Shown here piece after piece: positions 28,231-32,347 of a stretch of DNA of 64,000 nt. Under the pieces are notes generated by a model. It was not told where the DNA came from. It did not search any database and saw only the letters and a program-made list of their open reading frames with translations. The stretch comes from Haloarcula marismortui ATCC 43049 (GTDB lineage: Archaea; Halobacteriota; Halobacteria; Halobacteriales; Haloarculaceae): NCBI RefSeq assembly GCF_000011085.1, contig NC_006396.1, positions 992,001 to 1,056,000 of the forward strand. Reading direction: 5' to 3'. Position numbers and translations under genes: made by a program. Every line of letters begins with the position of its first letter. Position 1 is the first letter of the stretch.

Positions 28231-28839
28231 ATGACCGAGTGGCGTGACGCGTCGGACCCCGCCTGCCCGGAGTGTGGCGAGCCGCTGGAGCCCACGGCAA
28301 TGGCCTGTCCACACTGTAACGCGTCGCTACTCACTGACGAACAGGCCGAAATGCTCGACGAGCGCCTGACCGAGACGCTGGAGTCGATGGATTCCGGGAC
28401 GCCAACGTGGGCGGTCGCGCTCACTGGCCTCTCCCTCGGTATCGCCATTGCGCCGCTCGTGCTGTACGCCGTCGTCATCCTCGTCGGCGACCTCTCGCTT
28501 CCCGTGGCCGTCGGCGTCCTGTTAGCGGGCTGGCTCGGCCCGGCGGCGTATCTCTCGCGGCTTCGCAATCCCAGTGAGGTGCTTGCCCGCGGGCTATACC
28601 TCGTCGTCGCCGGCGTGGCCGTGGTTGTGCTTGTGGTCGGCTACGAAGTCCTCCTGTCAGATGGGCCGTCGGTGGTCTCGGAACAGACCGCACTTGTATC
28701 GCTCGGTCTGGCGATTCCGGCAGCACTGGGGGCGCTCATCGCACGCCGTGCCGCTCGGCGGGCTGACCGGCAGGCCCGCGGGGAACCGGGGCCACTGCAT
28801 GAGCGCTTCGGTATCGACGACGACGAGCCCGACAACTGA
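28231..28839 (+). CDS. Zinc-ribbon membrane protein
   Basis: A 202-aa protein. The N-terminal zinc ribbon has CPECGEPLEPTAMACPHC at residues 11-28, followed by an acidic helix and about four hydrophobic segments (around 55-80, 85-105, 122-145, 152-175). The tail is basic then acidic and probably cytosolic. Family unknown to me, although the domain layout is common in haloarchaea. It precedes the MutS-like gene by 35 bp on the same strand. Confidence 0.75.
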   Translation: MTEWRDASDPACPECGEPLEPTAMACPHCNASLLTDEQAEMLDERLTETLESMDSGTPTWAVALTGLSLGIAIAPLVLYAVVILVGDLSLPVAVGVLLAGWLGPAAYLSRLRNPSEVLARGLYLVVAGVAVVVLVVGYEVLLSDGPSVVSEQTALVSLGLAIPAALGALIARRAARRADRQARGEPGPLHERFGIDDDEPDN

Positions 28840-28874
28840 AAACGCCTAAGCGGGCCGCCGTTCTCCACCCGTGC

Positions 28875-30632
28875 ATGCGACTGGAGGAGTACTGGGGCAT
28901 CGGCCCGAAGACGTCCGAACTGCTCACCGAGGAGCTGGGCGTCGAGCGGGCCATCGAGGCCATCGAGTCGGCGGATACACGAGCGCTAACTACGGCTGGC
29001 CTCTCCCGGGGACGAGCGACGCGCATCCTCCGGCGGGCGACCGGGGCCGAGTCGATGGACCTGCTCGCCACCAGAGACACCCGCGACGTGTACAAGGAAC
29101 TGCTCGACCTCGCCGAGGAGTACGCGGTCACGGCGGATGCGGCGGACAGCATCCGGGTGCTGACGCCGCTGCCGACCCGCGAGGCGATGGCCGAGCGGCT
29201 GGACGACGTGCTCGAAGCGCGGGACACCTGGGCTGACCTCTCCGAGTCGGACCAGCGGGCCGTTCTCGACGCGTTCGAGGAGTACGACGCCGGCGGGGGT
29301 GAACTGGCCGCGGTCGACGTGGCGCTCGCCCTCCGGGACACCGGCATTGAAAGCGGCGTGTTCGAACCGCTAGCGGCCCTCGACGGCGAGTCGCTGACGG
29401 CCGGACGGGCGGCGCTCGCCGGGCTCGCGGGCGACGGCGAGTTCGTCGGCGAAGGGGCCGATGAAGAACTCGACCGCCTGCGCGACCAGCTCGGACAGAT
29501 AGAGGACCTTGCAGCGGCATCGATGGAAGTCGTCGAAGCCGTGCAAGAAGGCGCACGGCGACCCGACGAGTTCCAAGACGCGCTCGTCCGTCATGTCACG
29601 AGCGAGACGGGCATCGACGCCGCCCGCGTCCGGGATGCGATGCCCCGTGAGGCGACCGACGCGCGGGACTTCGTCGACGTGGCGCTCCGAGACCTCCGGA
29701 ACACGCTACGAAGCGACGTACAGAAGCGAGAGGAAGCCGTTGCCGACCGGCTGGAAGACGACCTCGCGGACGCCCGTGAAGACATCGACGCCGCAGTCAA
29801 GGCGGTGGACGACATCGCCTTTTCTGTCTCGCTCGCCCGCTTTGCCATCGCGTTCGACCTGACAAGGCCCAGCTTTGTCGAGGACCGCAAAACTATCGCG
29901 GTGAAGCGAGCACGGAACCTCACCATCGCGGACGTAGAGAGTGTCCAGCCGGTCACCTACGCTATCGGCGACCACACGCTAGAGTTGGACCGGGCGAACC
30001 AGCCGCCCAGCGGCGACCGGGTGGCTGTCCTGACCGGCGCGAACTCCGGCGGGAAGACGACCCTGCTGGAGACGCTGTGTCAAGTGCAACTGCTGGCCCA
30101 GATGGGGCTTCCGGTTCCCGCTGAGGCCGCCGAGGTCGGCATCGTCGACACGGTCGTGTTCCACCGTCGGCACGCGTCGTTCAACGCCGGCGTCCTCGAA
30201 TCGACGCTGCGCTCGGTTGTGCCGCCGCTGACCGAGAGCGACCGGACACTGATGCTCGTCGACGAGTTCGAGGCCATCACCGAACCCGGCTCCGCCGCCG
30301 ACCTTCTCCACGGACTCGTGACGCTGACTGTCGACCGCGACGCCTTGGGCGTGTTCGTCACCCACCTCGCGGACGACCTCGAACCGCTGCCCATCGAGGC
30401 CCGTGTCGACGGCATCTTCGCCGAAGGGCTGAATCAGGACCTCGACCTGCAGGTCGATTATCAACCTCGCTTTGGGACCGTCGGGAAATCCACGCCGGAG
30501 TTCATCGTCTCCCGACTGGTCGCGAACGCGAGCGACCCGGTCGAGCGCAGCGGGTTCGAGACGCTTGCCACAGCCGTCGGTGAGGAAGCGGTCCAGCGGA
30601 CGCTTTCGGACGCGCTCTGGACCGACGAGTAG
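28875..30632 (+). CDS. MutS-like ATPase with N-terminal helix-hairpin-helix
   Basis: A 585-aa MutS-related protein of the archaeal MutS5-like group. It begins with a helix-hairpin-helix-like GIGPKTSELL segment, continues with a long helical lever/clamp region (about 60-350), and ends with the ATPase: Walker A TGANSGGKTTLLE near residue 380 and Walker B LMLVDEFEAITEPGSA near 455. The mismatch-recognition domain of MutS1 is absent, so a role in recombination or structure-specific repair is more likely than classical mismatch repair. Confidence 0.87.
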   Translation: MRLEEYWGIGPKTSELLTEELGVERAIEAIESADTRALTTAGLSRGRATRILRRATGAESMDLLATRDTRDVYKELLDLAEEYAVTADAADSIRVLTPLPTREAMAERLDDVLEARDTWADLSESDQRAVLDAFEEYDAGGGELAAVDVALALRDTGIESGVFEPLAALDGESLTAGRAALAGLAGDGEFVGEGADEELDRLRDQLGQIEDLAAASMEVVEAVQEGARRPDEFQDALVRHVTSETGIDAARVRDAMPREATDARDFVDVALRDLRNTLRSDVQKREEAVADRLEDDLADAREDIDAAVKAVDDIAFSVSLARFAIAFDLTRPSFVEDRKTIAVKRARNLTIADVESVQPVTYAIGDHTLELDRANQPPSGDRVAVLTGANSGGKTTLLETLCQVQLLAQMGLPVPAEAAEVGIVDTVVFHRRHASFNAGVLESTLRSVVPPLTESDRTLMLVDEFEAITEPGSAADLLHGLVTLTVDRDALGVFVTHLADDLEPLPIEARVDGIFAEGLNQDLDLQVDYQPRFGTVGKSTPEFIVSRLVANASDPVERSGFETLATAVGEEAVQRTLSDALWTDE

Positions 30633-31186: not shown

Positions 31187-31208
31187 CCCGGCGGCTACAG
31201 CCGCCGGG
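31187..31208. terminator. 9-bp GC hairpin downstream of tRNA-like element
   Basis: CCCGGCGGC (31187-31195) pairs perfectly with GCCGCCGGG (31200-31208) around a TACA loop. It lies 3' of the tRNA-like element in the minus direction. No T-run follows, so termination is uncertain; it could equally be part of a longer structured transcript. Confidence 0.35.
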
Positions 31209-31293
31209 TGCGGCGTGACTGTGCTCTGCTCTTCGAGTCGCGTCGCCGCCTGTCGATGACAGTGGCGAGGTAGAGGTTGTGCATACGTGTGGA

Positions 31294-31357
31294 CTTCCCG
31301 GCAGGACTCGAACCTGCGCCGGGCGAGAGCCCGGGTCCGGTTGGGATATTCGGGAAG
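31294..31357 (-). ncRNA. tRNA-like element lacking a normal anticodon loop
   Basis: Read on the minus strand, a 7-bp acceptor-like stem (CTTCCCG at 31357-31351 with CGGGAAG at 31300-31294) encloses a perfect 5-bp T arm with a TTCGAGT loop (31317-31301). A short D-like arm TCC/GGA with loop CAACC precedes a 5-6 bp stem with a loop of only 4-6 nt where the anticodon arm should be. Total length is 64 nt and TCCA follows the acceptor. It may be a degenerate tRNA, an integration scar, or a non-decoding tRNA-like RNA. Confidence 0.45.
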
Positions 31358-31381: not shown

Positions 31382-31693
31382 TTACGCGTCACCGGTCACG
31401 TCGACGCAGTTGACTGCCATCACGCCGAACCCCGCTTGCAGGAGTTCGGTGCGGCCGTCGGCAGTGTTCCGTTCGTCGTCGACCCGCAGTGTCAGCGACA
31501 CATCGGCGTCGACCCGGATGTCGGTCCAAGTGGGACGCACGCTTGTCACACGGTCAACGGCCACGTCTTCGACGCCGTCGACGGCCGCAAGGACGCCGGC
31601 GACACCGGCTTCGAGGGTCTCGGACCCGCCACGCGGAACGCGCAGTGATACGTCGGCCGATACCTCGGTCGGGGGAGTCGCCTGCAGCGACAT
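31382..31693 (-). CDS. Uncharacterised 103-aa haloarchaeal protein
   Basis: Counted from MSLQATPPTEVSADVSLRVP; the 13 residues upstream in frame look non-coding. The protein is acidic, with alternating strands (VEDVAVDRVTSVRP, TWTDIRVDADVSLTLRVDD) and a final ELLQAGFGVMAVNCVDV, suggesting a small alpha/beta ferredoxin-like fold. No motif identifies a function. It is flanked by the GC-rich non-coding block upstream and the tRNA-like element downstream. Confidence 0.6.
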   Translation of the reverse strand: MSLQATPPTEVSADVSLRVPRGGSETLEAGVAGVLAAVDGVEDVAVDRVTSVRPTWTDIRVDADVSLTLRVDDERNTADGRTELLQAGFGVMAVNCVDVTGDA

Positions 31694-32048
31694 AACGCCG
31701 ACGGCCGGAGTCGAACCGGGCCGAAAGGGCACTCACCAATCGAGTCGCGTCGGTCGGGGACTGCGCGGGTGGCGGGCGCGTACGTCCGGCGCGGAGCGGC
31801 CGGTAGGGGATTCCCACACCAGGACGATGGGGAACCCGAGGGCTGGACAGCGAGAGGGCGACACGATACAGTGCAGGCTCAGGGCCGAGTGGCGACACGC
31901 CGACAGACCACACTGGGTGGTGCAGGCCTCTCAGACGGAGCGGCCAAGCAGGGGGTAGAGCCCCGCCGCTCGACAGTGAGCCAGATCGAATCCCCACCGC
32001 AGTGCGGCGTCCGTGAGTGGGACGCCGGTCCCACGGCGGCGAACCAGT
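31694..32048. other. GC-rich non-coding block with strong hairpins
   Basis: About 355 bp in which no frame looks like a haloarchaeal protein (products rich in Arg, Pro, Cys and His). Strong hairpins are present: GTGGGAC/GTCCCAC with loop GCCG at 32016-32033, GAGCGGC/GCCGCTC around an inner GGGG/CCCC (about 31938-31971), and TTCCC/GGGAA (about 31811-31833). On the plus strand the loops are purine rich. It may be a structured RNA; I could not match RNase P or SRP RNA. Confidence 0.4.
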
Positions 32049-32219
32049 CTATGGTGCCACGGGCGGAATCTTCACCGAGCGGGTGTCCGCGGCGACCCGT
32101 TCCCCGATAAGGGATGCATACTCGACCGTAGCGTCGAGGCTACGTTCGATGGCCGACCGCCCGCTGTACAGCCAGCGAGCGAACGACGTTGGCGCGGGAA
32201 CGGGAATTGCGTAGGTCAT
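32049..32219 (-). CDS. 56-aa small protein with leaderless promoter
   Basis: Short frame from the ATG at 32219: MTYAIPVPAPTSFARWLYSG, then an amphipathic helix RSAIERSLDATVEYASLIGERVAADTRS and a C-terminal VKIPPVAP. Coding support is the natural-looking composition and a TATA box (CATATATAC on the minus strand, 32245-32253) about 30 nt upstream of the ATG, which fits leaderless transcription. Family unknown to me. It precedes the GC-rich structured block, which may be its 3' UTR. Confidence 0.55.
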   Translation of the reverse strand: MTYAIPVPAPTSFARWLYSGRSAIERSLDATVEYASLIGERVAADTRSVKIPPVAP

Positions 32220-32244
32220 GGGTCACCACGTCGGTGAAAGCGAC

Positions 32245-32253: not shown

Positions 32254-32347
32254 ACCAGAACTGGTGATATATTAAATCTGTTTCAGACATGATACCAAAT
32301 AACAACCATTCGGCGGTCGCTGGCAAGACAGCAATCGACAGCCGGTG

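Follow-up and report, generated by a model that had tools for sequence, protein, structure and literature searches.

tRNA-like elements at the start codons of a conserved small-gene unit in Halobacteria and their possible use as mRNA punctuation

Results

A pair of tRNA-like elements flanks the gene for a small protein

The analysis of a 64,000-nt stretch of the Haloarcula marismortui genome (the window) and of related loci suggests that Halobacteria reuse tRNA-Glu and its relics as mRNA punctuation, which would set the leaderless 5' ends of a conserved small-gene operon throughout the order; we lean slightly towards this general statement. As for the process itself, it is fairly probable that one transcript is cut at tRNA-like relics by tRNase Z (together with RNase P) into near-leaderless small mRNAs. 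The relics have a tRNA-like structure with covarying stems, they keep their position before a start codon, and in some lineages an intact tRNA occupies the same spot.

The element to which an earlier note on this DNA had drawn attention (element 2) has the following parts.

31294..31357, minus strand: tRNA-like element 2, recognised by folding, covariance-model match and compensatory changes
31357-31351 with 31300-31294, minus strand: acceptor stem of element 2, 7 bp, CUUCCCG/CGGGAAG
31317-31301, minus strand: T arm of element 2, GCAGG-UUCGAGU-CCUGC, 5-bp stem
31293 and 31292-31290, minus strand: 3' flank of element 2, a discriminator-like U and then CCA

The tRNA-like structure described in the earlier note, which named no strand, is real and lies on the minus strand, with its 7-bp acceptor, its 5-bp T arm with the UUCGAGU loop, and U followed by CCA. 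The anticodon arm is indeed replaced by a stem with a short loop, namely a 6-bp hairpin with a 4-nt loop. The minimum free energy of the element is -31.8 kcal/mol. When 67 nt were folded, z was -2.93 and equally good folds were found in 2/200 shuffles; with 65 nt, z was -3.06 (0/200 shuffles). The 17-mer of the T arm is present in a single copy in the window and was found in 0/100 shuffles. The structure is therefore, as had been argued, too intact for chance (z about -3), a possibility ruled out by the folding z, the unique 17-mer and the compensatory changes presented below.

ARAGORN calls no tRNA in the window, in agreement with the claim that the element cannot decode normally, and the Rfam search of element 2 gave nothing at gathering level, RF00005 included. 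These two negative results ruled out an active tRNA. The candidate tRNA-Sec (RF01852) was rejected as well, since it scored 19.8 bits (E 0.19) against a gathering level of 47 and the element has only a 7+5 bp stack. The short D-like arm noted earlier found no support in the comparison: 70.4% of the cells of its 3 pairs were paired and 0 pairs had changed on both sides.

When element 2 was searched for at the same place in relatives, blastn located it in 10 of the 32 Haloarcula genomes, its own genome counted, and its flanks aligned along with it. The covariance model R1 had matches in 36/146 genomes of the family, with ordinary tRNAs partly among them; the matches L032, L036, L037 and L038 (L numbers denote loci) were dropped as ordinary tRNAs by ARAGORN. 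The covariance model R2 scored element 2 at 76.6 bits. Searched with R2 at E up to 10, its own genome yielded three places: element 2, a place of 21.8 bits without a tRNA call, and a second element (element 1), which lies directly before the ATG of a 103-aa protein gene in the window as well as in several relatives.

31697..31754, minus strand: tRNA-like element 1, weak when taken alone and recognised by comparison among loci
31382..31693, minus strand: 103-aa protein gene (P102), recognised by codon-position variation, order-wide distribution and a predicted model
31195..31284, minus strand: 29-aa Arg-rich ORF MHNLYLATVIDRRRRDSKSRAQSRRTRRL, found at this place by profile search (1.2e-18)

Element 1 (31754→31697) is made of the acceptor ACCGACG/CGUCGGC with an A-C end pair, the D-like arm CUCGAUUGGUGAG, and the T arm CCCGG-UUCGACU-CCGGC with one mismatch; 3 nt separate it from the ATG (31693). 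An A-C pair at the acceptor end is frequent, being found in 12/67 distinct elements of the window and relatives. R2 scored element 1 at 20.9 bits (E 0.22), and a looser pattern gave 20 places in its own genome against 4 for the reversed control, only one of the 20 being element 1. It should be noted that element 1 folds no better than shuffles (z +0.27), as do the elements of L154, L104 and L100, which counts against the punctuation reading.

Element 2 sits between the 103-aa gene and the 29-aa ORF and is the downstream member of a pair flanking the 103-aa gene. Two further genera have the strong element itself at the start of the homologous gene, with 2-3 nt between it and the ATG, indicating that the 103-aa gene is the constant partner. 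Two Haloarcula loci (L066 and L067) have element 2 missing or broken and keep element 1 and the 103-aa gene, which also counts against the punctuation reading; L066 retains the 29-aa ORF despite this loss or damage.

The 103-aa protein is widespread and has a predicted ferredoxin-like fold

The 103-aa gene was first listed as a 116-aa ORF starting from a GTG. Among 14 distinct Haloarcula sequences, its variation over the three codon positions was 26/16/60. The protein profile had matches in 216/392 genomes and 63/95 genera of the order, and a wider profile in 241/391 of the class sample. The model predicts a ferredoxin-like fold (pLDDT 84.5). Foldseek gave no match to this model at E 0.001 or better (best E 5.1e-3), and in the fold comparison the matches were generic, with 3bpd at Z 7.1 and 2x3d at Z 6.8; DUF211-like is a candidate family name for these ferredoxin-fold matches. 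As far as the listed matches go, the predicted fold points to no function. Searches against Pfam, NCBIfam, PHROGs and solved relatives gave scattered weak matches only, none of them above cut-off.

The gene had no match in the plasmids, phages or viral contigs searched, and the idea in the earlier note of an integrase attachment scar therefore found no footing. The 3' halves of tRNAs are common integration sites, and a scar left by an integrated element was weighed for this reason. However, the element still has the two strands of its acceptor and its T arm, which covary, and the gene is absent from the mobile elements searched, as far as negative searches can tell, so that a scar is hardly credible. 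A mobile-element origin was rejected, no relative having been found in the mobile-element searches.

As for the surroundings, a MutS-domain gene and a zinc-ribbon gene are located near the unit (window 28231-30632, plus strand), and also nearby in L059 and L070 of the same family. In L161 (1700-3900), L162 (2700-4750) and L163 (2250-3850), the 103-aa gene is embedded in arrays composed of tRNAs and unusual tRNA-like units, and intron-like inserts with repeats of similar sequences occur in several of these units; ARAGORN called 3, 5 and 6 tRNAs in these loci, respectively.

The upstream element keeps a short distance from the start codon across the order

The position of the upstream element was examined in 90 loci, comprising the 30 best and 60 picked to spread over families. 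A T loop TTCRANNC followed by an in-frame ATG was found in 86/90, and at least 4/5 pairs of the T stem were present in all 86. The gap between acceptor and ATG in these 86 loci was 2 nt (40 loci), 3 nt (30), 4 nt (10), 5 nt (5) or 0 nt (1). Two of the misses were L086, which lies at a contig edge, and L146, whose surroundings are tRNA-like but whose T loop is a variant. The T-loop motif is absent in L126 and L135, which counts against the punctuation reading; by eye, a long hairpin remains at the position in these two loci, as if the acceptor/T stack had been preserved in the form of a single helix.

As the ATG had been picked via the T loop in this count, a stricter repeat was performed on 20 previously uninspected loci. 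For this, all in-frame ATGs were taken, and a T stem of at least 4/5 pairs and a gap of 0-6 nt were demanded. The start codon passed in 18/20 loci, compared with 1/298 of the other ATGs of those loci; the two misses (L235 and L237) share the variant T loop of L146. In the window, 2/1195 ATGs passed, one of them belonging to the 103-aa gene and the other, inside a longer ORF on the opposite strand, being taken as chance. A Shine-Dalgarno reading of the position was rejected, since a GGAG-like string at -15 to -4 was seen in only 20/86 loci.

Downstream, a T arm on the sense strand within 190 nt of the stop codon of the 103-aa gene was found in 35/90 loci (antisense, 3/90). Tiny ORFs often lie behind this arm, and several of them are Arg-rich in the family of the window. 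ORFs of 27-32 aa that are Arg-rich and end in RRTRRL, RRTRRR or similar follow the downstream element in the window and in L094, L100, L101, L104, L110, L119 and L120. In L134 the distance from the end of the downstream element to an ATG is again 2 nt. In most aligned Haloarcula loci, the 29-aa ORF starts 9 nt past the acceptor of element 2; that element 2 in the window ends 9 nt, and not 2-3 nt, before its ORF counts against the punctuation reading. tRNA-like units that flank genes and abut start codons, the layout expected of punctuation, were thus found upstream in 86/90 and 18/20 loci and downstream in 35/90.

The functional non-decoding RNA suggested in the earlier note came nearest among its options, but the context points to a mark for processing in cis within an mRNA, because in 85/86 loci 2-5 nt separate the end of element 1 from the start codon of a gene of one and the same family. 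Such a fixed spacing would also suit an uncut regulatory mimic of tRNA, bound beside the start codon by the 103-aa product, a synthetase, a translation factor or the ribosome and controlling translation in cis. The 103-aa protein is small and its predicted ferredoxin-like fold, however generic its matches, is common to many RNA binders. Meanwhile, synthetase identity is not kept, because the acceptor is variable, as are the bases next to it, and the anticodon arm has disappeared; element 2 also precedes other ORFs; and some loci have an intact tRNA-Glu at the same spot, a pre-tRNA being normally processed. We therefore regard the uncut mimic as rather unlikely.

The stems of the element are maintained by compensatory changes

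For the examination of covariation, a set of 19 diverse elements (A6) was picked by hand, from which the R2 model was built; L031 was left out of it for poor acceptor pairing, and L002, L005, L006, L008, L025 and L026 as copies or near copies. In A6, 9/12 pairs of the acceptor and T stem had changed on both sides (0/500 shuffles), and 96.5% of the cells were paired compared with 82.3% in shuffles (0/500 as high), although this pairing is partly selected because most rows came from covariance-model matches.

A second set of 67 distinct elements was also considered, which had been chosen by T loop and ATG alone, without selection on pairing. Their T stem has 94.0% standard pairs, compared with 69.3% in shuffles (0/500 as high), and exchanges such as GC, CG, TA or AT occur at 3/5 of its pairs. 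While T-stem pairs that changed on both sides are no more numerous (3) than in shuffles, the number of such cells is higher, 81 compared with 34. The excess of the acceptor over shuffles in this set is biased, because the 5' strand was chosen as the best match. The acceptor pairing of a single locus is weak, since shuffled upstream sequence did equally well in 47% of trials on average, and this counts against the punctuation reading. The paired positions, whose conservation the earlier note had proposed to check, are thus conserved in relatives both in the T stem of the 67 elements and in A6. The sequence of the acceptor varies and its shape is kept, as expected for an enzyme that reads shape. 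What is retained is a tRNA-size acceptor stem and T arm without a decoding arm, which is the structure of a t-element.

Element 1 probably descends from tRNA-Glu(UUC)

ARAGORN found an intact tRNA-Glu(UUC) at the position of element 1 in L123 and L124, which belong to one genus, and in L133 of another family. The Rfam tRNA score of the L124 element is 59.1 bits. L139 represents a third family; by eye it retains this arm with one loop base altered, although ARAGORN calls a tRNA-Arg. These three loci with tRNA-Glu(UUC) indicate a series from tRNA to non-decoding remnant, and the comparison of sequences suggests that element 1 probably descends from a real tRNA, namely tRNA-Glu(UUC).

A tree of 77 proteins was considered, which has few columns, with 13 near-identical or edge rows dropped and the label 'remnant' assigned by eye. 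On it, two to three changes are needed to account for the three intact cases; L128, placed near L123 and L124, carries a degenerate element. The simplest history is that a tRNA-Glu stood before the gene and its decoding arms were lost several times; a reverse order, from remnant to intact tRNA, is conceivable.

The earlier note had also offered a degenerate tRNA. The ancestry part of this proposal stands, at least for element 1, by virtue of the three tRNA-Glu(UUC) loci, whereas functionless decay does not agree with the compensatory changes. A tRNA pseudogene decaying without function would account for intact tRNAs in some lineages and remnants in others. It would not account for compensatory changes in the stems, for conservation beside one gene throughout the order or for the maintained 2-3 nt spacing, and we consider it very improbable. 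In particular, a pseudogene with loss of stem constraint is contradicted by the compensatory pairs.

A hairpin GGUUCCCCAUCG...GGUGUGGGAAUCC is located upstream of element 1 at 31807-31837 of the window (minus strand), and a very similar one is found upstream of tRNA-Glu in L161, L162 and L163, which belong to other families. Judging from this resemblance, the unit may include this hairpin as an additional conserved RNA feature.

The unit may be read from a distant promoter and cut at the elements

The remaining features of the putative transcript are as follows.

32267..32277, minus strand: TATA-like stretch ATTTAATATAT, at a similar distance in most Haloarcula loci
32049..32219, minus strand: sORF1, a 56-aa ORF at the probable 5' end of the transcript
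31187..31208, minus strand: GC hairpin of 9 bp that overlaps the 29-aa ORF at its stop codon, recognised from sequence and alignment

8-mers with at least 7 A/T were found within 200 nt upstream of the 103-aa gene in 0/86 loci; for comparison, an all-A/T 8-mer is present within the same distance of 6/36 long ORFs of the window. A promoter at the 103-aa gene is unlikely for this reason. In most Haloarcula loci, the TATA-like stretch is placed about 580 nt upstream of the 103-aa gene, before sORF1, and is a possible promoter of the whole unit. Given this distant stretch and no promoter-like stretch nearby, the 5' end of the 103-aa mRNA is probably made by processing, or else the gene is read inside a long message. 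sORF1 was found by pattern in 12/20 loci of the range L075-L094 (not all of them Haloarcula), and its first 26 aa are nearly invariant across those 12. Both sORF1 and the 29-aa ORF are likely to be coding, with weak codon periodicity (13/7/16 and 15/12/20, respectively). The hairpin at 31187..31208 is a possible 3' end signal.

We infer a single transcription unit, the cleavage, the enzymes and the benefit from this arrangement. A long transcript would start near 32240 and run through sORF1, element 1, the 103-aa gene, element 2 and the 29-aa ORF. The acceptor/T stack and the T loop are the parts used by tRNase Z and RNase P, and each element keeps these features (a 12-bp stack and the T loop) and has lost the decoding parts. 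tRNase Z would cut after the base next to the acceptor stem, which would usually leave 1-2 nt ahead of the AUG in the mRNA of the 103-aa gene. As the gap is 2-3 nt in 70/86 loci, a cut after the discriminator would leave 1-2 nt, that is, a leaderless mRNA, and haloarchaea translate leaderless or nearly leaderless mRNAs well. At element 2 of the window, the same cut would leave 8 nt before the AUG of the 29-aa ORF. RNase P may cut the 5' side of an element and thereby trim the upstream message. The anticodon arm of the ancestral tRNA would have been lost several times, and the processing signal kept. Against punctuation, the Haloferax tRNA-like elements tested by Hoelzle (Biochimie, 2012), other than the one at 5S rRNA, were reportedly not cleaved in vitro.

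If cleavage occurs, the excised tRNA-like RNA could itself be the functional product, a stable non-decoding RNA, the effect on the mRNA being incidental. Element 2, compact and strongly folded (z -3.06), would fit such a product. However, the central part varies in length and sequence between lineages, the acceptor, T arm and distance to the ATG being constant, and element 2 is lost or broken in some Haloarcula members, which makes this alternative improbable.

Discussion

Processing marks of tRNA-like shape have precedents. t-elements in plant mitochondria are such marks, found in an organelle and in another lineage; a gradation from intact tRNAs to relics at a single locus is not known for them. 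The tRNA-like mascRNA/menRNA of animals, at the 3' end of long non-coding RNAs, is released by RNase P and tRNase Z; its Rfam model (RF01684) scored the tRNA-Glu of L162 at 24.2 bits, under the cut-off of 42.5. Most known cases of mRNA punctuation by tRNAs come from organelles, and in haloarchaea it is the element preceding 5S rRNA that is established as a tRNA-like processing element.

Reports on Haloferax volcanii describe a t-element upstream of 5S rRNA that is cut by tRNase Z to give the 5' end of 5S (PMC4326828, PMC4946936). The elements described here likewise have a tRNA-like structure in a haloarchaeal sequence, and their cleavage is proposed. Unlike the 5S t-element, which precedes a stable rRNA, they lie before the start codons of small protein genes, often occur on either side of the gene and are conserved order-wide. 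t-elements have also been used in pairs for the excision of crRNAs (PMC4326828, PMC4946936), and those placed around a crRNA in Haloferax are processed in vivo, which was attributed to RNase P and tRNase Z (PMC4326828). In mitochondria, intergenic tRNAs are excised by RNase P and Z and the mRNAs are thereby freed (PMC8437803). That system employs working tRNAs, whereas mostly relics without a decoding arm are seen here, on an archaeal chromosome.

t-elements and tRNA punctuation are already known, and what appears to be new is the use of relics of tRNAs to punctuate start codons within an archaeal operon. Searches of an open-licence library of papers found no description of tRNA-like elements in front of these genes.

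The locus also draws attention to a widespread uncharacterised protein family and to a set of tiny Arg-rich ORFs. If the punctuation reading is true, tRNase Z would gain a role in the making of mRNAs, and it would be explained how internal genes of an archaeal operon become leaderless. The loci would then represent a natural series from a working tRNA to a pure processing signal, and the enzymes of tRNA processing would determine how protein genes are expressed in a free-living archaeon.
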